Positions 38,735 through 52,038 of a stretch of DNA of 64,000 nt are shown here, piece after piece. Each line of letters opens with the position of its first letter. Position 1 is the stretch's first letter. Below the pieces are notes generated by a model that searched no databases, was not told the DNA's origin, and saw only the letters and a list, made by a program, of their open reading frames with translations. Both the position numbers and the translations under genes were made by a program. This DNA comes from Desulfacinum sp. GTDB lineage: Bacteria; Desulfobacterota; Syntrophobacteria; Syntrophobacterales; DSM-9756. The stretch covers positions 1 to 64,000 of the forward strand of contig JACIYN010000002.1 in NCBI GenBank assembly GCA_014359885.1. Reading direction: 5' to 3'.

Positions 38735-39493
38735 TCAGCGGAGCCCTTCGCAGGCACGCCCGTTCCCGTCGCGGTCCAGGCGGTGCACGTCCCGACCCGT
38801 GATCCGGAGGCACTCTTCGAAGCACCGCTGAGCCTCTTGCCACGACGAAAAGTCCCCGCAGTCCAGATCCACATCGCAGCGACACGAACCGCGCATGGAT
38901 GGGGCGGATGCAATTGATGCCGAGGCGAACTTCCTCCCGTGGCGGTATTCCCAGGGAGGCACGGGATCGACGCCGGCCCAGAGCCCCGTGGTCCGGTCCC
39001 TGGCCTCCTCTTCCAGCTTCACCAGGCGGCGGCACAGGTCGAAATCCTTGCAGTATCGGCGATACACCCAGGCATGGCCGGACGCCACCAGTTCTTGGTT
39101 GAGAAGCCTTCCTCCCACCTCCACCAGGGCCACGGTGCGGCCGTAGCGGTCCCGGGTGACGGGCCCAACCGAAACGTCCCGGCCCAACGCGAGCCCCTCG
39201 ACAAAGGCGGTGGCCTCCGGACCGCCCTCCTGGGCCTTTTCCGGGCAGTCCACGCCATAGAGACGCACCCGTACTGCTTCCGAACCCCGAAAAACCGTGA
39301 GGGTGTCGCCGTCGTGGACCTCCACCACCCGGCCGGTCCAGGCCCAAGCCGGAAGTCCCAACCAGAATCCCCAGGTCCCCAACACAACCAGAAAAAAGAG
39401 AATCGTACCCCATCACCTCGACAAGAAGCTGCACGAGCCTCTGTTCTCAGCCAACACAACCAGAAAAAAGAGAATCGTACCCCATCGCTTCAT
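38735..39493 (-). pseudogene. Thermonuclease-like exported protein with excalibur domain, frame broken by a 72-bp insertion
   Basis: The native start is the ATG at 39493, preceded by AAAGGAG at good spacing. The reading frame begins MKRWGTILFFLVVL, then runs through 36 bp of foreign sequence to an in-frame TGA at 39413-39415, after which the same signal-peptide segment repeats and the gene continues. Removing 72 bp restores a signal peptide ending AWA and a staphylococcal-nuclease domain (VVEVHDGDTLTV, VRLYGVDCPE, DRYGRTVALV). A C-terminal excalibur calcium-binding motif follows (DRDGNGRACEG). Translation could restart at the GTG at 39385, but the positive n-region of the signal peptide would be lost. 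The TGA is not a convincing Sec codon, because no active-site context exists. Confidence 0.8.
39379..39486. repeat. 36-bp direct repeat / 36-bp unique spacer / 36-bp direct repeat
   Basis: Identical 36-bp copies (starting CCAACACAACCAG, ending TACCCCATC) lie at 39379-39414 and 39451-39486, separated by exactly 36 bp of unrelated sequence (39415-39450). The copies overlie the signal-peptide codons of the nuclease gene. One repeat plus the spacer (72 bp) is therefore an insertion relative to the ancestral gene. Size and layout equal one CRISPR repeat-spacer-repeat unit. Confidence 0.9.
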
Positions 39494-39652: not shown

Positions 39653-39678
39653 GCACAGGACACCCTGCGGAGGCGCCC

Positions 39679-40179
39679 ATGGATCACCCCCTCTTTTCCA
39701 AAAAATGTGTGGTGCTCGGATGCGGAAACCCCCTTCTGGGCGACGACGGCTTCGGCCCCAAGGTGATCGAACACCTGGAAGCCCTGGGACCTCCCCCCCC
39801 GACCACCGCCTTCGTGGATGCGGGCACGGCCGTTCGGGACATCCTCTTCGACCTCCTCCTCTCCCCCGAAAAACCGCAGCAGCTGATCATCGTGGACACC
39901 GGTCATCATCCCGAAAAGGCGCCCGGAGAAATCTTCGAAATCCATGTGGACCAGGTCCAGCCGGCCAAGATCCACGACTTTTCCCTGCACCAGTTCCCCA
40001 CCACCAACCTGCTCAAGGAGCTGAGCGAGCACACGGACGTGCAGGTCCACGTTTGGGTGGTGCAGCCGGCCGTCATTCCCGACCAGGTGTCGGAAGGCCT
40101 GTCCGAGCCGGTGGCCCGGGCGGTGCCGCGCATGGCCCAGCGGATCCTGGAGTTCATCCGGCGGGGCGGCTGGGCCTGA
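39679..40179 (+). CDS. Hydrogenase maturation protease (HyaD/HycI/FrhD type)
   Basis: The 166-aa endopeptidase removes the C-terminal peptide from a [NiFe] hydrogenase large subunit after metal insertion. The N-terminal [15 protein letters not shown] is the family hallmark, with the Asp/Glu that sense nickel; DAGTAVRD and IIVDTGHH supply further conserved acidic and His residues. Its target is almost certainly MvhA, encoded at the end of the following operon. The protease would have to act on a selenocysteine-containing metal site. It is 145 bp upstream of hdrA and probably co-regulated. Confidence 0.92.
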
Positions 40180-40324
40180 AGCCCCGGTGGGGTCTCTGCA
40201 AAAGGGGGATCTCGGAGACTCAAGAAAGGTTGGAAAAGGGAGCGGCGGGCCTTTCGCTCTCCCCGGCAGCTCTTTTGGGGTACGACAACGCAATGGCAAT
40301 CAGAGACTTTCGGGAGGTAACCTC

Positions 40325-43300
40325 ATGAAGCATGATCCCAGCGGATCGGTCCTGGTGGTGGGCGGCGGCATCGCCGGCATGCAGGCCGCGTTGGATCTGG
40401 CGGACTCGGGCTACCGGGTCCACCTGGTGGAACGGACGGCCGCCATCGGCGGGGCCATGGCCCAACTGGACAAGACTTTTCCCACCAACGACTGCGCCAT
40501 GTGAATCATCGCTCCCAAACTGGTCGAGGTCGGCCGGCATCTCAACGTGGAGCTGATGACCCTGTCCCAAGTGACCCACGTTTCCGGATCTCTCGGCAAC
40601 TTCCAGGTCACCATCCGCCAAAAGCCCCGCTACGTGGACATGGAAAAGTGCATCGCCTGCGGTCTGTGCGCGGAAAAGTGCCCCAAGAAGGTGGACGATC
40701 CCTTCAACGCGGGCATGGGTAAACGCAAGGCCGCCTACATCCCCTACGGCCAGGCGGTGCCGCTCAAATACGCCATCGACCCCGAGCACTGCATCTACCT
40801 TACCCGGGGCAAGTGCCGGGCCTGCGAAAAGTTCTGTCCCACGGGCGCCGTCAACTTTGAGGACACGGAGCGGACCGTCACGGTGAACGTGGGGGCCGTC
40901 ATCGCCGCCCCGGGCTTCCAGGCCTTCAACCCCCAGGGCCTGGACGTCTACGGCTACGGCCGGGTGCGGGATGTGGTGACCAGCCTGGAATACGAACGGC
41001 TCCTGGCGTCCAACGGCCCCCACATGGGCCACCTGGTGCGCCCGTCGGACCACGAGGAACCCCGGAAGATCGCTTGGATCCAGTGCGTGGGGTCCCGCAA
41101 CATCAACCGGTGCGACAATCCCTACTGCTCGTCCGTGTGTTGCATGTACGCCGTCAAGCAGGCGCTGGTGACCGCCGAACACCTGAACGGCGACGAGGTG
41201 GAGCAGGCCGTCTTCTACATGGACATCCGAAGCCACGGCAAGGAATTCGAGCGTTACTACGAATCGGCCAAGGAAAAGGGCGTGCGCTTCGTCCCGGCCC
41301 GGCCCCACAGCATCTCACCGGGTGAGAAGGGCAAAGGTGCGGTTCTCGAATACGTGACCCGGGACGGCCGCCCGGTGCGGGAGGCCTTCGACCTGGTGGT
41401 CCTGTCGGTGGGGCTGGAAGCCCCCAAGGACGCCGAGGATCTGGCCCGGATCCTCGGGATCCACTTGAACGAAAGCCGCTTCGCCCGCACCTGCGGCTTT
41501 TCCCCCGTGGCCGCCACCCGCCCCGGGATCTTCGTCACCGGCGCCTTCCAGTCCCCCAAGGACATTCCCCAGTCGGTCACGGAAGCCTCCACGGCGGCCT
41601 GTGAGGCGGCCCGGGCTCTGGCGGCGGCCCGCGGAACCCAGGCGCGGGAAAAGACCTATCCGCAGGAACGGGACGTGTGCGGCGAGAACCCGGTCATCGG
41701 GGTCTTCGTCTGCTCGTGCGGCATCAACATCGCCAACACGGTGGACGTCCAGGCCGTGGCCGCCTACGCCCGCACCCTGCCCCACGTGGCTTACGTGGAA
41801 AACAACCTTTTCACCTGTTCCGCGGACACCCAGAACCTCATCGCCCAAAAGATCAGGGAACACGGCCTCAACCGGATCGTGATCGCGGCCTGCACCCCGC
41901 GCACCCACGAGCCCCTCTTTCAGGACACCCTGCGGGAGGCGGGCCTCAATCCCTATCTCATGGAAATGGCCAACATCCGCAATCAAAACGCCTGGGTCCA
42001 CCAGCAGGACCGGGACAAGGCCACGGAAAAGGCCAAGGACCAGGTGAGGATGGCCGTGGCCAAGGCGGCCCTGAACGAACCTCTGCATCGCCTCAAGGTG
42101 AACGTGATCCAGCGGGCCCTGGTGATCGGCGGCGGCATCGCCGGCATGAACGCGGCCCTGGCCCTGGCCGACCAGGGCTATCCCGTGACCCTGGTGGAAA
42201 AGTCGGACCGACTGGGCGGAAACGCCTGGAAGCTCCTCACCAACGATGCGGGGGAACCCGTGGAGCCTTACCTGAAGGCTCTCATCCAGAAGGTGAACGA
42301 ACATCCCCGCATCCGCGTCCGCACGGGCACCACCCTGAGTTCCGTGACGGGATCGGTGGGCAACTTCCACGGCATCCTGGACCAGGACGGGAGCCCGAAG
42401 GAGATCCGCTTCGGCGTGGCGGTTCTGGCCACGGGAGCCCGGGAATCGGAGCCGACGGAATACCTTTACGGCCGGGATCCCCGCGTGCTCACCCACCAGC
42501 AGTTCGACGCCCTCCTCCGGGAGCGGCCCGAGGCGGCCGGGCGGGCCCGGAGCGCGGTCTTCATCCAGTGCGTGGGATCCCGCGAGCCCCAGCGGCCCTA
42601 CTGCTCCCGCGTCTGCTGCACCCACTCGGTCAAGACCGCCCTTCGCCTGAAGGAAGCCAATCCGGAGATGGACGTCTATGTACTCTACCGGGATATGCGA
42701 ACCTACGGAGAGCGGGAACGCCTCTACCAGGAAGCCCGCCGCCAGGGGGTCCTTTTCATCCGGTACGGGCTGGACGCCAAACCCCAGGTGGAAAAAGAGG
42801 GCGAGGATCTCTTCGTCATCGTGACGGATCCCATCCTGGGACGGCCACTCAAGATCCCCGCCGACTACCTGGTGCTGGCCGCCGCCATGGTGCCCAACGA
42901 CTCGGCGGACCTGGTGGAGATGTTCAAGTGCGGGACCAACGCCGACGGCTTCTTCACCGAAGCGCATCCCAAGCTCCGCCCCGTGGACCTTTCCGTGGAC
43001 GGCCTCTTCGTGGCCGGCCTTTGCCACTACCCCAAACCCATGGACGAATCCATCGCACAAGCCGGTGCGGCCGCCGCCCGGGCCGCCGTGGTCCTGGCCC
43101 GGGACGAGATGCTGCTGGACGCCGTCAAATCCTTTGTCACCGAAAAGTGCGACGGCTGCGCCTTGTGCGTGGACGTGTGCCCCTACCAGGCGATCCGGCT
43201 CGACACCATGGAAGAGACGGGGCGGCCGATCCGGCGCATCGTCACGGATCCCGCCCTTTGCAAGGGCTGCGGCCTGTGCGCCGCCACCTGCCCCAAGGGC

Positions 43301-43375
43301 GGCGTCATGGTGCACGGGTTCACGTTGAACCAACTGGAAGCCCAGGTGGAGGCCGCGCTGGGAAAGGCCGTCTGA
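40325..43375 (+). CDS. hdrA: HdrA-like electron-bifurcating flavoprotein, selenocysteine-containing
   Basis: The 1016-aa protein is read through a TGA at 40502-40504 as Sec60. The ATG at 40325 follows GGGAGGT, and the frame before the TGA encodes an FAD-binding start ([14 protein letters not shown]). The sequence TNDCAM-U-IIAPKL aligns Sec with the second Cys of the usual HdrA motif DCSxC-ILxPK. Further features are a ferredoxin site near 109 ([11 protein letters not shown]), another CRACEKFC, an SRNINRC/CSSVCC region and a second complete FAD module near 602 (GGGIAGMN). Two C-terminal [4Fe-4S] sites follow at about 942 and 979. The double-FAD size (about 1000 aa) is typical of bacterial HdrA fusions. 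It should split electrons from H2 between ferredoxin and a second acceptor. The ORF track misses the first 74 codons. Confidence 0.93.
40520..40537 (+). promoter_or_regulatory. Putative bacterial SECIS hairpin in hdrA
   Basis: CUGGUC-GAGGUC-GGCCGG forms a 6-bp stem (two or three G-U pairs) with loop GAGGUC, which resembles the AGGUCU loop of the E. coli fdhF SECIS. The stem starts 18 bases after the first base of the TGA. Confidence 0.65.
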
Positions 43376-43435
43376 TCCAAGAGCGAACCGCGAAGGCACG
43401 CGAATAAACATAGGAATGCAAAAGGAGCAACATCC

Positions 43436-43867
43436 ATGTCTCAGACCTTCGAACCCGTCATCATCGGCTTCTTGTGCAACTGGTGCGCCTACGCCGGAGG
43501 GGACCTGGCCGGCGTCTCCCGCCTCCAATATCCCCCCAACATGCGGCCCATCCGCGTCATGTGCTCGGGCATGGTGCACCCCGACCTGGTGGTCAACGCC
43601 CTGAGCAAGGGCGCCGACGGCGTCCTGGTCATGGGGTGACACCTGGGCGAATGTCATTACCTGGATGGTAATCACAAAGCCCTGGCCCGCAGTGAAGGCA
43701 TCCGCATCGCCCTGGAAAACGCCGGCATCGACCCCGAACGCTTCGCTCTGGAGTGGGTTTCTTCGGCTGAAGCCCCCCGGTTTGCGCAGCTCGTCACCCG
43801 GTTTGTGGACAAGATCCGCCGGCTGGGCCCCAATCCTCTTGCTCTGGATAAGGCCGCCAACGCCTGA
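43436..43867 (+). CDS. mvhD: MvhD-like [2Fe-2S] electron-transfer subunit, selenocysteine-containing
   Basis: The 143-aa subunit is read through the TGA at 43637-43639 as Sec68. The context VLVMG-U-HLGECHYLDGN matches the MvhD family, where the first position is normally Cys. Other conserved Cys are in CNWCAYAGGD and VMCSGM. The ORF track splits the gene at the TGA. MvhD passes electrons from the hydrogenase to HdrA and holds a [2Fe-2S] cluster, for which Sec would be one ligand or a nearby residue. The start has AAAGGAG. hdrA lies 60 bp upstream and the FrhB-like gene 39 bp downstream. Confidence 0.93.
43656..43672 (+). promoter_or_regulatory. Putative bacterial SECIS hairpin in mvhD
   Basis: AUUACC-UGGAU-GGUAAU is a perfect 6-bp stem starting 19 bases after the first base of the TGA. 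After one C-C mismatch three more base pairs extend it (UGU/ACA). Confidence 0.75.
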
Positions 43868-43906
43868 AAGTGTCCCACGAGCCGGCACTTCGCCAACGGA
43901 GGGATC

Positions 43907-45019
43907 ATGAAGACCTTTTTTCATCTCAAGCAGGACGTGATCGAGCCGGGCTTGTGCCACCGGTGCGGCGGCTGCGTGAGCCTTTGTACGGCGGTGAACT
44001 ACGGCGCCCTGGAGCTGGACGAGCAGGGCCGTCCCCGCTATCGGGACCCGGAGCGATGCATCGAATGCGGCCTGTGCCACGCGGCCTGTCCGGAAAATCC
44101 GGAACTGGAAGCCGAAACCAAACAGCGCCTGGCCTGGAGCGCCCCCATCGGCAGGGTGCTGAGCGTGCGGGTGGCCCGCGCCCTTGATCCTCAGGTGCGG
44201 CAAAGAGCCACCGACGGCGGCGTGGTCACCGCCCTGCTCTTGCACCTTCTGGATACCGGACACATCGATGGAGCCATCGTGGCCCGCCCGACCGGACCGT
44301 TTCAACGCGAGCCGCACCTGGCCGTTTCCCACGAAGACATTCTGGAGGGGGCCGGTTTCCATTTCGACACGACCCATTCCATGGTCGGACTGGGCAGGGA
44401 ATACTCCCACCGCCACGGCCTGGAGCTGGTCAGCCCCCATGTGCTCAAGGGCCTTCGCCGAGTGGCTCTCGTGGGCACCCCGTGTCAGATCCACGCCTTC
44501 CGAAGGATGGAAACCTTGGGCGTCGTTCCCTCGGAATCGGTCACCTTGTGTCTGGGCCTCTTCTGCTCCGGAAACTTCGCCTTCGGCGAAGAACAACGGG
44601 CGCGCCTGGCGGAAGCGGGCGGCTTTTGTTGGGACGATGTGGTAAAGATCAACGTCAAAGAAACATTCCAGGTGCACCTGCGCTCCGGAGAGATCCGCAC
44701 CCTGGATCTTGAGGTTCTGGACGGCATGAAGCACCCTGCCTGTCGCTACTGCGAAGACTACGCGGCGGAGGTGGCCGACGTCTCCTTCGGCGGCATCGGA
44801 GCTCCGGAAGGCTGGACCAGCGTGGTGACGCGCACCCCCAAGGGCCGTGCGGCCTTCCTGGACGCCCTGGGGCGCACCTTGGAAGAACATGACCGCACCG
44901 GGGCGCCGGATCTTGCGGACAGGGTGCTGGAGCAGCTCATGGGCGCCTCGGCCGCCAAGCGCCGCCGCGCCCGGGCCTTCCGCAATGAGACGGCGCCCGG
45001 GGCGTCGAAAAGGAGGTAA
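43907..45019 (+). CDS. FrhB-like (coenzyme F420 hydrogenase beta subunit family) Fe-S flavoprotein
   Basis: The 370-aa protein belongs to the FrhB/FdhB/FpoF family. Two N-terminal ferredoxin sites are present: CHRCGGCVSLC near residue 17 and CIECGLCHAAC near 56. The family core follows, including TDGGVVTALLLHLLD, GTPCQIHAFRR, CLGLFCSGN and the Cys pair in HPACRYCEDYA. FrhB proteins hold FAD and usually exchange a hydride with F420, but bacterial members may use other acceptors or quinones. It sits inside the hydrogenase operon, between mvhD and mvhG, where classical systems have no such gene. HdrB and HdrC are absent, so it may be the acceptor module of this complex. Confidence 0.9.
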   Translation: MKTFFHLKQDVIEPGLCHRCGGCVSLCTAVNYGALELDEQGRPRYRDPERCIECGLCHAACPENPELEAETKQRLAWSAPIGRVLSVRVARALDPQVRQRATDGGVVTALLLHLLDTGHIDGAIVARPTGPFQREPHLAVSHEDILEGAGFHFDTTHSMVGLGREYSHRHGLELVSPHVLKGLRRVALVGTPCQIHAFRRMETLGVVPSESVTLCLGLFCSGNFAFGEEQRARLAEAGGFCWDDVVKINVKETFQVHLRSGEIRTLDLEVLDGMKHPACRYCEDYAAEVADVSFGGIGAPEGWTSVVTRTPKGRAAFLDALGRTLEEHDRTGAPDLADRVLEQLMGASAAKRRRARAFRNETAPGASKRR

Positions 45020-45025
45020 CCATCC

Positions 45026-45964
45026 ATGTCGGTAAAGGTAGCGAGCGAATGGCTGAACTCCTGCTCCGGCTGTGAAATATCCGTGGTGGACATGGGGGAA
45101 CGCCTGTTGGACGTTCTCCAGGTGGCCGAATTCGTGCACATCCCGGCCCTCATGGACCACAAGTATTTCGGGCAGCTGGGCGACGGACGCCATCTGGAGA
45201 TCCCCGAAGCGGACGTGGGCCTCATCAGCGGCGGGATCCGAAACGAGGAACACCTGGAGGTGGCCCGGGAGATGCGGGCCAAGTGCAAGGTCATCATCGC
45301 CCTGGGCACCTGCGCCACCCACGGGGGCATTCCGGCCCTTTGCAATTCCTACCGGAACGAAGAGATCCTGGAGCGCGCCTTCGGGACCGAAACGACCGAT
45401 CCCAACACCTTCGAGCCGGAAAAGCCCCTGCCGCAGCTTCTGGATGCCTGCTACGCCCTGGACGAGCACATCCGGGTGGATCTCTACATGCCGGGCTGTC
45501 CTCCCCATCCCGACCACGTCTTTTCGGCCCTGACGGCCCTGGTGGAGGGCGCAACGCCGGAGCTTCCGGGAAAGAGCGTTTGCGACACGTGCCCCACCAT
45601 CCGCGAGGGCAAGGGCCAGGTGAAGGCGCTCCGCCGCTTCGTACAGTCCCCGCACTACGGCGCTCCCGACGAGCCGCTGGACAAGATGCGCTGCTTGCTG
45701 GAACAGGGCTTTTTGTGCATGGGCCCTGTCACCCGGGCGGGCTGCGGAGGCGACAAGGTCACGCCCCGCTGCATCTCGGCCCGGGTGCCCTGCCGCGGCT
45801 GTTACGGACCCGTGGTGCACGAAGGCAACCAGATGGTGGACATGCTCAACGCCCTGGCATCCAACGGCATCGACGTGCGGTCCCTTCCGGAACACGTGTC
45901 CCTGCTTCGGTTTTCGGGAGCGCACCGGCGCCTGCGACCCAAGCGCCAGCGAAAGGAGGCGTAA
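45026..45964 (+). CDS. mvhG: [NiFe] hydrogenase small subunit (MvhG-like)
   Basis: The 312-aa soluble subunit carries electrons from the nickel site through three Fe-S clusters. The proximal-cluster motif is near the N-terminus (ASEWLNSCSGCEIS), with further ligands in LGTCATHGG and MPGCPPHPD. Medial and distal cluster Cys lie in CDTCPT, FLCMGPVTRAGCGG, CISARVPCRGCYGP. There is no twin-arginine signal, so the enzyme is cytoplasmic, as expected for group 3c. It starts six bases after the FrhB-like gene and is followed by mvhA three bases later. Confidence 0.95.
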   Translation: MSVKVASEWLNSCSGCEISVVDMGERLLDVLQVAEFVHIPALMDHKYFGQLGDGRHLEIPEADVGLISGGIRNEEHLEVAREMRAKCKVIIALGTCATHGGIPALCNSYRNEEILERAFGTETTDPNTFEPEKPLPQLLDACYALDEHIRVDLYMPGCPPHPDHVFSALTALVEGATPELPGKSVCDTCPTIREGKGQVKALRRFVQSPHYGAPDEPLDKMRCLLEQGFLCMGPVTRAGCGGDKVTPRCISARVPCRGCYGPVVHEGNQMVDMLNALASNGIDVRSLPEHVSLLRFSGAHRRLRPKRQRKEA

Positions 45965-45967
45965 TAG

Positions 45968-47422
45968 ATGGCTCGGGAAATCCACATCCAACCCATCACG
46001 CGCATCGAGGGCCACGCGTCCATCCAGATCCAGCTGGACGACGCGGGCGAGGTCCGGGATGCCCGCGTGAACATCCTGTCCCTTCGGGGCTTTGAAAAAT
46101 TCATCGAGGGCAAACCCGCCGAAGAGGTCCCCCGCATCGTGAACCGCATCTGCGGGATTTGTCCCTGGATGCACCACTTGGCGTCCAACAAGGCCGTGGA
46201 CCGCTGCTTCGGGGTCACGCCGCCTCCGGCCGGACGGAAGCTGCGGGAGCTCATGCAGACCATCGCCCATGCGGAAGACAAGCTCCTGCACTTCTTCTTC
46301 CTGGCCGCCGCCGATTTCGTCATCGGTCCCGATGCGGACTACGCGGTCCGGAACGTGATCGGCATCGCCAAGGCCAACCCGGAACTGGCCCAAAAGGTGG
46401 TGCAGATGCGCCACAAGGCCAAGATGATCCTGGAAAGGTTCGCCGGAAAGGCCATCCACCCCGTGGCGGGTGTGGTGGGCGGTTTCGCCAAGCCCATGAC
46501 GGAGGAAGACCGCCGGGAGATCCTGGCCCAGATGCGGGAACTCCTGGACTTTGCCCTCTTCACCCTGGAGTTCGCCAAGGAGAAGGTCTTTCCGCCCTAT
46601 CTGGACGCCATCCAGACTCTGGGGGTCATCCGAACGGGCTTCATGGGAACGGTGGACGACGACGGAGCCCTCAACCTCTACGACGGCAAGATCCGCCTCA
46701 TGAAGGCCGACGGCTCCCACATGGACTTCGACGCCCAGGACTACACCGACTACCTGGGCGAACACGTGGAATCCCATTCCTATGGAAAGATGCCCTACGC
46801 CAAGGCCTGGAACGAGGGCTTCAGCCTGGACCTGGAAGAGCCCAAGGGGATCTACCGGGTGAACACCCTGGCCCGGATCAACGTGGCCGACAAGATGGCC
46901 ACGCCCCGGGCCCAGGCGGAATTGGAGGAATTCCGCGAGCGGTTCGGACGCCCCGCCCAGGCCACGCTGCTCTACCACTGGGCGCGGCTCATCGAAGAGG
47001 TCTACGCCTGCGAGCATGCCATCGAACTGCTGGAGGATCCGGAGATCTGCAGCCCGGAGGTGCGCACTCCCGCCGAACCCAAGGCCGGTCGGGGCGTGGG
47101 CTGCGTGGAGGCGCCCCGAGGCACCCTCATCCACGATTACTCCACCGATGAGAACGGTTGCATCACCCGGGCGAACCTCATCGTGGGCACCACCCACAAC
47201 ATCGGTCCCATGAACATGAGCGTCAAGCAGGCGGCTAGGACCCTGATCCACGCAGGCAAAGTGGACCAGGGGATGCTCAACCGCATCGAGATGGCCGTGC
47301 GCGCCTATGACCCGTGAATTTCCTGCGCCACACATCGCCTGGACGGCGATTACGGCATGACCGTCACCATCACGGACGCTTCCGACCGGGTGGTGGCCCG
47401 CTGGCCCGAGGCCTCGTCCTGA
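45968..47422 (+). CDS. mvhA: [NiFeSe] hydrogenase large subunit (MvhA-like), selenocysteine-containing
   Basis: The subunit has 484 aa when the TGA at 47315-47317 is read as Sec450; the ORF track stops there. The N-terminal metal motif is RICGICPWMHH. At the C-terminus the frame continues as DP-U-ISCATH followed by 28 residues to a TGA at 47420-47422. DP(C/U)xxCxxH is the invariant second nickel-ligand motif of [NiFe] hydrogenases, so readthrough is needed for an active site. The maturation protease should cut after the His, removing RLDGDYGMTV... Sec as a Ni ligand commonly gives faster H2 turnover and better recovery from O2. It is the last gene of the operon, before a strong terminator. 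Confidence 0.95.
47334..47350 (+). promoter_or_regulatory. Putative bacterial SECIS hairpin in mvhA
   Basis: AUCGCC-UGGAC-GGCGAU is a perfect 6-bp stem beginning 19 bases after the first base of the TGA. Distance and loop (UGGAY) match the mvhD hairpin. Confidence 0.8.
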
Positions 47423-47429
47423 TACCAAG

Positions 47430-47459
47430 AAGGGGCGGCTCGACGAGCCGCCCCTTTTT
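47430..47459 (+). terminator. Strong intrinsic terminator of the hydrogenase operon
   Basis: AAGGGGCGGCTC-GAC-GAGCCGCCCCTT is a perfect 12-bp stem with a 3-base loop followed by a T run. It starts eight bases after the true mvhA stop, supporting the extended reading frame. Confidence 0.95.
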
Positions 47460-47490
47460 AGTCCATCCGTGGCGAAGACATTTCAGTCCA

Positions 47491-49002
47491 TCATTCCACC
47501 CAGCCGAAGGTGCGTTCCACGGCCTTTTTCCAATAACGATAGCCTTCCTCACGGCGGGCCTCGTCCATGGCGGGGGTCCACGTCTTGTCCATAGACCAGT
47601 TCCGGGAAAGCTCCTGGAAATCGGACCAGTAGCCCACCGCCAGTCCGGCCGCGTAGGCGGCGCCGAGCGCCGTGGTTTCCGTGACCTTGGGGCGCACCAC
47701 GGGCACATTGAGCACATCCGCCTGGATCTGCATGAGCAGGTCGTTGGCCACCATGCCGCCGTCCACCTTGAGGGTGGTGAGAGCCACCCCCGAATCGGCG
47801 TCCATGGCTTCCACGATGTCCCGCGTCTGGTAGGCCGTGGCTTCCAAGACGGCCCGAGCCAGATGGCCCTTGTTGACAAAGCGCGTCAAGCCCACCAACA
47901 CCCCACGGGCGTCGGACCTCCAGTACGGAGCGAAGAGCCCGGAGAAGGCGGGCACCAGGTAGGCTCCGCCGTTGTCTTCCACGGTTCGGGCCAGGTCTTC
48001 CACCTCCGCCGCCGTTTTGATCAGTCCCAGATTGTCCCGGAGCCATTGCACCAGCGCCCCGCCGATGGCAATGGACCCTTCCAGGCAATAGACCGGGTCG
48101 TGGCCCCGCATCTGGTAGCCCAGGGTGGTCAAAAGTCCCCGCTGGGACACCACAGGCGAGGTGCCCGTGTTGAGCAGCAAAAAGCAGCCCGTGCCGTAGG
48201 TGTTCTTCGCTTCTCCGGGCTGAAAGCAGGTCTGTCCCACCAGGGCCGCCTGCTGGTCGCCCAGGGCGCCGCACACGGGCACCGTGGCCTGAAAGGCTCC
48301 GGTGCGCACCGTATGTCCCAACGTGTTGGGGTCGATGGACGGCACGATGCGCGGAAGCATTTGAGCGGGGATTTCCAGGGCGTCCAGGATCTCGGGATCC
48401 CAGTCCAGGGTTTCCAGGTTCATGAGCAGCGTGCGGCTGGCATTGGTCACGTCGGTCACATGGGCCCCGCCATGGGGTCCTCCCGTGAGCCACCAGATGG
48501 CCCAGCTTTCGATGGTGCCGAAAAGGGCCGTACCCTTGCGGGCCGCCTCGGCCGCTTCCGGAACGTTATCCAGAATCCAACGGATCTTGGGCCCCGAAAA
48601 ATAGGTGGCGATGGGAAGGCCCGTCTTCTGCCGGAAGCCGTCCTGGCCGTAGATCTTTTCCAGGCCTCGGCAGATCTCCGCCGTGCGGGTGCACTGCCAG
48701 ACGATGGCATTATAAAAGGGCCGGCCCGTGGTCTTGTCCCACACCACCGTGGTCTCCCGCTGGTTGGTGATCCCGAGAGCGGCGAGATCCGACCCGCTGA
48801 GTCCCGTCTTGCTCAACGCCCCCCGGATGACGGCCTGGGTGTTTTCCCAGATCTCCATGGGGTCGTGTTCCACCCAGCCCGGATGGGGAAAGATCTGGCG
48901 GTGTTCCTTCTGATCCAGGCCCACGATGCGGCCTTCCCGGTCGAAGATGATGAATCGGTTGCTGGTCGTTCCCAGATCCAACGCCCCGATGTACGCCCCC
49001 AT
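47491..49002 (-). CDS. glpK: Glycerol kinase
   Basis: The 503-aa enzyme phosphorylates glycerol to glycerol-3-phosphate with ATP. The start at 49002 follows GGAGGTG; the ORF-track start at 49143 is upstream in repeat DNA. FGGY-kinase blocks include the N-terminal [28 protein letters not shown], the substrate region [11 protein letters not shown] and the ATP-site [26 protein letters not shown] and [13 protein letters not shown] follow near the C-terminus. Length is standard for GlpK. The gene is 179 bp from glpB on the same strand and converges with the hydrogenase operon. Confidence 0.96.
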
Positions 49003-49098
49003 GGGACACCTCCGTCTTGCGGTTAGGGTCTGAACGGTTTTCGCTCGTCTTTTACAGGATTCGCTCCCGCCCCTACAAGAACGCATTGCCCGTTGGGC

Positions 49099-49122
49099 AG
49101 GAGCGGGGCTTATCCCCGCCCG
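49099..49122. repeat. GCGGGG-TTAT-CCCCGC dispersed stem
   Basis: GGAGCGGGGCTTATCCCCGCCCGCC lies between glpK and glpB. Similar stems occur at 8.75, 23.7, 36.6 and 38.4 kb. Confidence 0.6.
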
Positions 49123-49180
49123 CCAAACGTGCAGCAACGACAAAACCCGAGGAAGAAACCCCGTTCCGTCCGGGTTTGAA

Positions 49181-50464
49181 TCAACCCAGAAGCTCCGCCA
49201 GGGAGGCCACAGCCGACCAGGCAGTGGTCACCGCCAACCCGGCCCCGCACTTTTCCCGCATCCAGTCGTGATGGGCCAGGATGGTCCCGGCGGCCACCAG
49301 GGTGGGAAAGGCCGGTTGTCCGGATTCGCCCAAAGGGCGCCACCGTTCATCCACCGTCACGCCGCTTCGGTTCACGGGGTGGCCCTGGGGATCGAAAAAA
49401 TCCTTCCGGTGCCAGTCGTTCCGGGTCTCGGGCTGCGCCACGGGAAGGCCGAAAACCGCCTCCCGGATAGCCGTGCGCTCCGCCTGCAGTCCACGGCCGA
49501 AAAAGCGCCCCGTGGCCAGCACGGCTCCCCGGCATTCGATCTGAAAAGAAGGACGTTCGGCACCGCAATCGAAGAAAAATCCCCCGTCGTCCGTAACGGA
49601 AAATCCCAGCACCTTGTGTTGCAGGCGACAGTCGATGCCCTCCCGGGGGAGGGCTTCCTCGAAGAGGTTCTTCAAACGAAGCCCGGGAAGGGACGGCGGC
49701 ATGGTGGGTATTTCGAAAAGCGGCCGCCCCACGGCCGCCTCCAGCCGTCGAAAGACTTGACCTCGGTCGTGAATGCCGCACACGGCGGGAAGCCCCACCA
49801 CCCGGGCGTCTCCCAGATGGGGGCGGATGAGATCGGCCAGGCGCTCGCAGCCTCCGTCCGTTGCCAGGTCGCCGGCGATCTGTTCCGGAAAGATCTCACG
49901 GGCCGGCTGGGCAAAAGCCACGGTGCAGGCACGCACCCCCCGCCAGAACCGCTGGAGGTTCGACGCCGCCTGTCGGGCGCTGAAGCCCTTGAGCCCCTCC
50001 AGACCCACCAGGAGGCACGGAGCCTTTTCGTCCAGGGCGGTCACGGCGTTCTTCATGGTGGCGGGAACGGCGTAGGTGGGCTTCAGGGTACCGGCCGCCG
50101 TCACCACCCGAAGGTTGCGCCCCTTTTCCCGGTGGTAGGCAAGGCCGTTGTCTTCCAGAAAGTCCAGGAAGACCTCCAGGGCCCCTTCCACCTCCTCTTT
50201 TTTCACCCGCGCATACGGATGGTCGGGAAGATCCCGGCTCAGCGCCTCCAAGGCCGCCCAAGGATCGTCCCAGACCCGGCCCTCCGAAACCGGGTGCACC
50301 CCCAGAAGGTCCACGAAACCGCTGGAAAAGATGAGGGGCCCCGTGGTGCCCACCACCGACACCCGAAGACCGCGGCGGGCCGCAAACAAGGCGGCGGAAA
50401 GGCCCGCCAGGCCGGCTCCGATCACCACCACATCCGCCAAGGTGTGCTCCAGCCCTTCTGTCAT
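49181..50464 (-). CDS. glpB: Anaerobic glycerol-3-phosphate dehydrogenase subunit B
   Basis: The 427-aa flavoprotein subunit has an N-terminal dinucleotide fold, [38 protein letters not shown] is a GlpB-type block. The C-terminal part ([18 protein letters not shown]) ends with a second flavin-binding-like stretch. Together with GlpA it oxidises glycerol-3-phosphate to dihydroxyacetone phosphate. Its start overlaps the stop of glpA by four bases, indicating coupling. GlpC, the membrane Fe-S anchor in E. coli, is not encoded here, so electrons may leave by another route. Confidence 0.92.
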
Positions 50465-52038
50465 GCTCCCGCCTCCCCGCCGTCTTCACGGCGCGTTTCC
50501 AGATCCAGGCTGAACAGGGCGCAATAGAGCGCCTCCTGGAATTCGTACTGCACCATGGGCTGGCCCCACAGGAGCGGACGCTTGCCCCGCCAGCGCTCCC
50601 GGAGAAACCCGATGAGGCTCTCCATTCCTTCCCGGCCCTGGTACACACCGGCCTCGTAGAGGTGCGCGGCAATCCGCTGGCTGCAAAAATTTCCCTGACA
50701 CGGTCCTTTGCCCACGCGACTCCGCACCCCCACCGCCTCCAGCGTGGGAGCTTCCCCGCCCCGGCGGATCTGATCCACCAGGGAATCGACGGTGGAACGG
50801 GGCACCATCTCGCATTCGCACAAGACCAGATCGGACGGATCGGCCCGCTTCACCCACTGGCGCGGCGCCTTTCCCGGTTCGGTCCACCGCCCCCATTCAC
50901 TGGCCGGAAGGGGCTCCACATGGGTCCGACACGGAGCGTTTAACCCCAGAAGTGCGCAGACCCGGTCGGCCGTCTTTTCGGCCATGAGCCGGTAGGTGGT
51001 GAGTTTGCCGCCCGTGATGGTGAGAAAGTTTCCGACCCCGCAGACCTGGTGGTCGATCAGATGGTAGCCCCGGCTTACGGTGCGATCCCCCCGCCTGCTG
51101 CCTTCCGCCAGCAAAGGCCGCACGCCGCAGTAGGCGCGGATGTAGCGGGCCGAAGCCAGGGACGGCACCATGCGTGCGCATTCGTCGATGATGGTGTCGA
51201 TCTCGTGGACCTCGGGATAGATGGCGTCGGGAGATGCCACCCGAACGGACGTGGTGCCGAGGATGGAGACCGTGCCGCCGGGGACCACGATGTCCGCATC
51301 GGATGCGGGACGAAGTCGGTGGATCACCCGATCGCTCACCCTTTGCTGGGTCACCAGCAGACTCCCCTTGGAATAGAGCATGTCGAAGCGGATGCCGGCC
51401 AGGGCCCCCACCTGCCCCGCCCAGGCCCCCGCCGCATTGACCACCACCTGGGGCTCCAGGACCGTCTCCCGGCCGGTGCGGGTATTTCGCAGTCGCACCC
51501 GAACGATGCGCCCATTGCCCCGCTCCAGGGCCTCCACGCGGGTGTGGGTCATGAGCCGCGCTCCCAGAGCGCAGGCCTGGGCCATGTTGTCCAGGGTGAG
51601 CATGAAAGGATCCACGGCGGCGTCCCGCAGGGCATAGGCGGCGATCACCTGATCCGAGAGCTCGGGCTCCATCTCCCGGGCTTCGGAAACCGGGACCGCT
51701 TCCCCCTCCACGCCGCAACGGGCGCACAGTTCGGGAAAATCCGCCACGTACCTTTCGTCGTCTCCCGCCAGCGCCACGTAGAGGCTCCCCGTATCCTCGA
51801 TGCACTGGGGCGCCAGACGTTTCAAAAGCGCGCTTTCTTCCGCGCATTCCCGGGCGGCTTCCGGATCGTTCCCCACGTAGCGGCCGCCGCCATGCAGCAG
51901 TCCGTGGTTCGCTCCGGACGCCCCCGCGGTGAGATCCTTCTTTTCCACCACCACGCACGAAACGCCGCGAAGCGCCAGATCCCGGGCCAACCCCGCCCCC
52001 GTGACTCCGCCTCCAATGATGACCACCTGCATTTCCAC
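50461..52038 (-). CDS. glpA: Anaerobic glycerol-3-phosphate dehydrogenase subunit A
   Basis: The 525-aa catalytic subunit starts with an FAD fold (VVIIGGGVTGAGLARDLALRG). The DAO domain includes GASGANHGLLHGGGRYVG. The C-terminal BFD-like domain binds a [2Fe-2S] cluster through Cys in LCECEMV and GPCQGNFCSQRI. That domain distinguishes GlpA from aerobic GlpD. The gene is divergent from glpR, and a GlpR-like operator lies about 50 bp upstream of its start. Confidence 0.95.
   Translation of the reverse strand: MEMQVVIIGGGVTGAGLARDLALRGVSCVVVEKKDLTAGASGANHGLLHGGGRYVGNDPEAARECAEESALLKRLAPQCIEDTGSLYVALAGDDERYVADFPELCARCGVEGEAVPVSEAREMEPELSDQVIAAYALRDAAVDPFMLTLDNMAQACALGARLMTHTRVEALERGNGRIVRVRLRNTRTGRETVLEPQVVVNAAGAWAGQVGALAGIRFDMLYSKGSLLVTQQRVSDRVIHRLRPASDADIVVPGGTVSILGTTSVRVASPDAIYPEVHEIDTIIDECARMVPSLASARYIRAYCGVRPLLAEGSRRGDRTVSRGYHLIDHQVCGVGNFLTITGGKLTTYRLMAEKTADRVCALLGLNAPCRTHVEPLPASEWGRWTEPGKAPRQWVKRADPSDLVLCECEMVPRSTVDSLVDQIRRGGEAPTLEAVGVRSRVGKGPCQGNFCSQRIAAHLYEAGVYQGREGMESLIGFLRERWRGKRPLLWGQPMVQYEFQEALYCALFSLDLETRREDGGEAGA

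Follow-up and report, generated by a model that had tools for sequence, protein, structure and literature searches.

How much energy sulfate reducers and syntrophs conserve from H2 depends on complexes of the HdrA type. The selenocysteine (Sec) operons of Deltaproteobacteria are among the closest described systems to the locus presented here. Zhang et al. (2006; PMC1794560) reported five-gene operons in which hdrA-frhD-frhG-frhA are accompanied by GlpC, for example in Syntrophobacter fumaroxidans. A flavoprotein of the FrhB family is known from Elp-Hdr, where the subunit ElpB donates electrons via an MvhD homologue; in solved Hdr complexes such subunits are on the donor arm (PMC12350162). For Desulfobacterium autotrophicum, PMC2702500 gives a Sec HdrA1 with a Sec MvhA2DG cluster, as well as several hdrA/hdrL-mvhD loci with a gene named 'FdhB', two of them without FdhA. 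These 'FdhB' loci can be likened to the present one by description, and the text consulted does not describe an arrangement of FrhB with MvhGA. Searches of the open-licence literature turned up no account of an MvhADG-HdrA-FrhB operon in bacteria.

Such an operon is present in the 4.33-Mb genome of Desulfacinum sp. It lies in the window, which is the 64-kb stretch of contig C32 that was analysed, on the + strand at 39676-47422, in the order maturation protease, hdrA, mvhD, frhB, mvhG, mvhA. MvhA, MvhG, MvhD and HdrA are thus encoded in one operon. As the original prediction had it, frhB is placed between mvhD and mvhG, 39 bp beyond the MvhD stop (43867) and 6 bp ahead of MvhG. The features, with positions in the window, are:

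39676..40179, + strand: hydrogenase maturation protease (HycI/FrhD type; Pfam HycI 9.6e-19, TIGR00072 1.6e-35), presumed start the ATG at 39679
40325..43375, + strand: HdrA, 1016 aa, two FAD (TrxR-like) domains, TGA 40502-40504 as Sec60
43436..43867, + strand: MvhD/FlpD, 143 aa, TGA 43637-43639 as Sec68 (MG-U-HLGECH)
about 43655..43672, + strand: SECIS-like hairpin ATTACC-TGGAT-GGTAAT, 3' of the mvhD UGA
43907..45019, + strand: FrhB-family Fe-S flavoprotein, 370 aa, N-terminal ferredoxin domain and FrhB core
45026..45964, + strand: MvhG, hydrogenase small subunit, 312 aa (VhuG model 1.9e-68)
45968..47422, + strand: MvhA, hydrogenase large subunit, 484 aa, RICGIC motif, TGA 47315-47317 as Sec450 (DP-U-ISCATH)
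47431..47460, + strand: GC-rich hairpin resembling a terminator, with a run of T behind it, read in the sequence directly 3' of mvhA

The operon is best described as a variant form of the known selenocysteine hdrA-mvhDGA operons, in which FrhB is the presumed outlet. It shares with the operons of Zhang et al. the four core genes, the doubled HdrA, and Sec in HdrA, FrhD (MvhD) and FrhA (MvhA), but the fifth gene there is GlpC, a CCG (HdrD-like) selenoprotein, whereas the window operon has no GlpC and carries FrhB between mvhD and mvhG. The methanogen MvhADG-HdrABC complex (5odc and relatives) has homologues of MvhA, MvhG, MvhD and HdrA; here, in contrast, the operon lacks HdrB and HdrC and includes FrhB, its HdrA is of the two-FAD form, and the hydrogenase, MvhD and HdrA are selenoproteins. 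The proposed complex is one that works like MvhADG-HdrABC, yet it is not classed as one because HdrBC is absent from the operon. In Elp-Hdr and Fdh-Hdr (8rvu, 7bkb; PMC12350162) an FrhB-family flavoprotein is likewise combined with an MvhD-type connector and HdrA, but those complexes use F420H2 and have FdhA/ElpA and HdrBC; the window operon encodes neither FdhA/ElpA nor HdrBC, and the host is without F420 genes.

The three in-frame TGA codons, which the first reading of this DNA had overlooked, occur at conserved Cys positions (HdrA codon 60, MvhD codon 68, MvhA codon 450) and are predicted to be read as selenocysteine. Within the ten nearest loci all three sites are TGA wherever the gene is present, which for HdrA means 10/10 and for MvhA 9/9 of the loci that include mvhA. 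SelB was found above cut-off in 12/12 genomes searched. The hairpin in mvhD beats all 200 shuffles (z = -3.5) and is invariant in eleven loci, wobble positions included; the hairpins after the HdrA and MvhA UGAs were no better than shuffles. With selenocysteine at a conserved Cys of MvhA, together with SelB and the mvhD hairpin, the hydrogenase is by its sequence a predicted [NiFeSe] enzyme of Mvh/Vhu type (group 3c, Vhu-like). HdrA had been described as a double-FAD form, and its alignment to 5odc_A (1e-192) agrees: residues 10-380 match 147-511, residues 454-610 match 2-158, and residues 826-1010 match 466-648. In order, this gives an FAD domain with an inserted ferredoxin, the domain that is N-terminal in 5odc-type HdrA, another FAD domain and a C-terminal ferredoxin.

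FrhB itself matches the Pfam families FrhB_FdhB_C (1.3e-33) and FrhB_FdhB_N (3.4e-17). Its N-terminal domain has two CxxCxxCxxxC motifs for 2x[4Fe-4S], and the core holds a further [4Fe-4S] and an FAD pocket. The AlphaFold2 model (pLDDT 83) has its best Foldseek matches in 8riu_B (TM 0.79) and 8rja_E (0.77), the F420-reductase subunits of ethanotroph CODH and Fwd. These share the two-domain layout with an N-terminal ferredoxin domain, but identity is 26%, the flavin-pocket motifs are changed, and the partner enzymes there are CODH or Fwd (PMC11493965). Fsr and Frh are next, followed by ElpB and FdhB from Hdr complexes (8rvu_E, 7bkb_E) and after these by 7-hydroxymethyl chlorophyll a reductase. 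In an alignment of 34 FrhB orthologues the flavin-pocket motifs are TDGG (34/34), GFxFD and CxGN (the former, and CxG(N/H), in nearly all) and SFGG, while five F420-using structures instead have QDGG/QNGG, G(T/S)xY, CxE and S(V/T)GS. The pocket is thus altered at four conserved places, and three of the four changed segments are loops around the FAD in Frh (PMC3930138). In addition, the loop at 154-180 is longer in the orthologues; it is a low-confidence part of the model. Q-D-G-G and G-T-K-Y were considered as F420-specific motifs and rejected, as bacterial paralogues have similar motifs, which are hence family-wide. Since these paralogues keep Q-x-G-G and mostly G-S-x-Y, the changed pocket marks this clade of FrhB and not simply the loss of F420.

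Desulfacinum infernum and D. hydrothermale are thermophilic sulfate reducers, and they are also the nearest named relatives by FrhB identity (92% and 83%); a scan of genome contigs with the single protein matched no named species besides these two. FrhB matches among the first 98 relatives fall into two classes, one at 56-92% and the other at about 30% identity, and all loci of the former class, in ten further genomes, have the same gene order. The maturation protease is kept 5' of hdrA in most orthologous loci. In a sample of 395 genomes from the phylum, 32 have FrhB orthologues at E <= 1e-70, and the synteny hdrA-mvhD-frhB-mvhG-mvhA is found in about ten more loci beyond those of the ten relatives. 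Several families share this order with FrhB. The order kept in ten further genomes and the orthologues in 32/395 indicate that the arrangement is not due to chance. Orthologues are nearly always beside HdrA-MvhD, while the input module varies between MvhGA, NuoEFG (L107, L109, L113, L115, L120) and MetVF (L108, L116); the most distant matches (L117 and L118, about 40%) have no Hdr gene nearby. The NuoEFG loci contain NuoE-NuoF-NuoG-like genes, a fusion of the C-terminal half of HdrA with MvhD, and FrhB, and are NADH-linked, without hydrogenase.

Homologous Sec operons without FrhB have other outlets: a GlpC/HdrD-like selenoprotein in 11 loci, HdrBC in L092, a QmoC-like protein in L091, and Fdh in L077 and L087. 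The original prediction had FrhB in an operon without HdrBC. FrhB in place of HdrBC is frequent as an arrangement, but it is not a strict rule, and some distant FrhB operons do have HdrBC or an HdrD-like protein. A GlpC-like gene lies between mvhD and frhB in L097 and L104, and L111, L112 and L119 have FrhB plus full HdrABC-MvhADG. The occurrence of FrhB together with a CCG protein in these five hydrogenase-bearing loci means that FrhB does not have to be a functional substitute for HdrBC. That FrhB and CCG proteins strictly exclude each other held in the first loci with readable context and was given up on account of the same five loci and L108.

The outlet travels with HdrA. In the HdrA tree the FrhB-type sequences form one clade and the GlpC-type sequences another, each with 100/100 support, and the MvhD tree agrees with this split (78/93 and 99/97). 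For MvhA and MvhG, in contrast, the AU test rejects a clade of FrhB-type sequences (p 1e-8 and 1e-4). HdrA and MvhD are thus divided by outlet and the hydrogenase subunits are not, which argues that FrhB goes with HdrA-MvhD, and that HdrA and its outlet evolve together while the hydrogenase is swapped. Part of the contrast could be linkage, as the adjacent hdrA, mvhD and frhB may recombine as a block. Thirteen HdrA positions separate the FrhB type from the GlpC type; they are scattered, and a clear patch was not found among them.

We lean towards an H2-linked, HdrA-based bifurcating complex in which the second electron leaves (or enters) through FrhB, a reading of the sequences that seems a little better than evenly probable. 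It would be a soluble cytoplasmic [NiFeSe] hydrogenase-HdrA complex with FrhB as its second redox portal. MvhA would split H2 and the electrons would pass to HdrA via MvhG and MvhD, one of them going to ferredoxin through HdrA, while the other would enter FrhB at its N-terminal clusters, cross the [4Fe-4S]/FAD core and end on a soluble carrier of two electrons. This carrier would not be F420 and probably not NAD+; NADP+ would be the simplest candidate, and is weakly held. The reaction may also run backwards (confurcation to H2). An MvhAGD-HdrA-FrhB complex had been put forward in the original prediction, and it is favoured by the synteny, by the HdrA and MvhD trees, and by solved structures of FdhB and ElpB with MvhD-HdrA; from these we infer the physical complex, and on the proposed scheme also bifurcation, the electron path, its direction and the carrier.

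The same solved structures also speak against an outlet role, since the FrhB-family subunits in them lie on the donor side. FrhB may be a donor-side arm like methanogen ElpB/FdhB, with electrons running from XH2 through FrhB and MvhD to HdrA, in which case FrhB would share MvhD with MvhAG or compete for it, and the reaction would be a confurcation of XH2 and reduced ferredoxin to H2, or would use another acceptor in trans. The main support for this is that ElpB and FdhB act from the MvhD/ElpC arm of HdrABC (PMC12350162); the resemblance of the FrhB model to 8rvu_E and 7bkb_E, and the three loci that have FrhB besides HdrBC and MvhGA (L111, L112, L119), point the same way. However, the operon contains no FdhA or ElpA bridging subunit, and most hydrogenase-type FrhB loci are without another acceptor module, which would leave the second half-reaction without a partner; we consider a donor arm unlikely, if well worth keeping in mind. 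It is less probable still, though conceivable, that HdrBC or a GlpC/HdrD-like protein from another locus joins HdrA in trans, FrhB being accessory or a separate enzyme. The hdrBC genes had been said to be missing, and it is true that the operon has no HdrB, HdrC or other CCG protein and that contig C32 has no CCG match. The genome search proposed at the time nevertheless found hdrBC pairs elsewhere, each beside its own hdrA: one on C86 (with a copy on C115), in the order hdrC-hdrB-hdrA-mvhD followed by flavin/Fe-S oxidoreductase genes, and one on C30, as hdrC-hdrB-hdrA with a GltD-type insertion. GlpC-like proteins are encoded on C78, C71 and C31, and L097 and L104 combine a GlpC-like gene and FrhB in one operon. 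A single MvhA of this type turned up in the genome, and it could in principle also serve the set on C78, where a GlpC-like selenoprotein is found with a Sec HdrA and MvhD, without hydrogenase. Against a partner in trans, the hdrCB genes and the GlpC genes of C78 and C71 adjoin their own HdrA and MvhD, the HdrA tree separates the FrhB type from the GlpC type with full support, and the FrhB gene order is kept across several families.

For FrhB as the outlet, the nature of the carrier is narrowed by the genomes. F420 was among the carriers first suggested, and its biosynthesis genes were also to be searched for. None was found above cut-off: CofE was found in 0/34 genomes carrying frhB, CofD in 0/11 genomes and CofH in 0/24; controls picked up the families in methanogens. 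The CofH-like matches, at about 340 bits, are under the cut-off (374) and come as two paired genes per genome, which suggests MqnC/MqnE of menaquinone synthesis. The absence of CofE and the altered flavin pocket together make F420 a very unlikely carrier for this FrhB. A supply of F420, or of its precursor FO, from neighbouring organisms would fit the family name and fold of FrhB, but it is scarcely credible given the same Cof counts and pocket residues unlike those of all five F420-using structures compared. NAD(P) had been suggested too. Some orthologues lie next to NuoEF, an NADH module, which argues weakly against NAD(H) as the partner of FrhB, and NADP+ is retained as the simplest candidate.

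The locus narrows the question of the second electron in complexes without HdrBC, as FrhB is the sole candidate outlet in the operon and F420 is very unlikely. It is possible, as a tentative extension, that the FrhB clade is an F420-independent portal for HdrA-MvhD cores across Desulfobacterota, fed by H2, NADH or methyl-tetrahydrofolate modules, with an unrecognised carrier and, in the hydrogenase form, bifurcation without HdrBC. Since Desulfacinum is a genus with cultured species and has the operon, one purification could identify the carrier.

Several smaller observations concern the related operons and the assembly. Of the GlpC-type HdrA operons (L070, L076, L078, L079, L081, L090 and other GlpC-type loci), 10/12 also encode a small protein of about 76 aa that is rich in Cys (motif CG..HMTVD); of the FrhB type, 0/21 do. 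The N-terminal helix-turn-helix domain of GlpC is found in FrhB-type operons, either free-standing or as an extension ahead of HdrA (L044, L045, L097 and L104-L106; in L098-L101 and L103 it is apparently fused to HdrA), and its survival suggests that FrhB-type operons descend from a GlpC-type operon. In L098, L099 and L101, NfnA- and NfnB-like genes are directly 5' of HdrA-MvhD-FrhB-MvhGA and share its strand, which ties the complex to NADPH/NADH/ferredoxin exchange. L091 (G062:C4) has a Sec MvhADG operon with a GltD-inserted HdrA and the QmoC-like membrane protein, a possible hydrogenase-HdrA-quinone link. In the Desulfacinum assembly, C6/C45 and C86/C115 each have near-identical gene sets on two contigs, which suggests redundant contigs (the contamination estimate is 7.4%). 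Upstream of the operon, at 39379-39491, there is a 41-nt direct repeat in two copies 72 nt apart and 95% identical, a spacing like that of a CRISPR repeat-spacer unit in minimal or remnant form. On its other side, at 47491-52038 on the - strand, genes that read as glycerol kinase and anaerobic glycerol-3-phosphate dehydrogenase-like are convergent with the hydrogenase operon.
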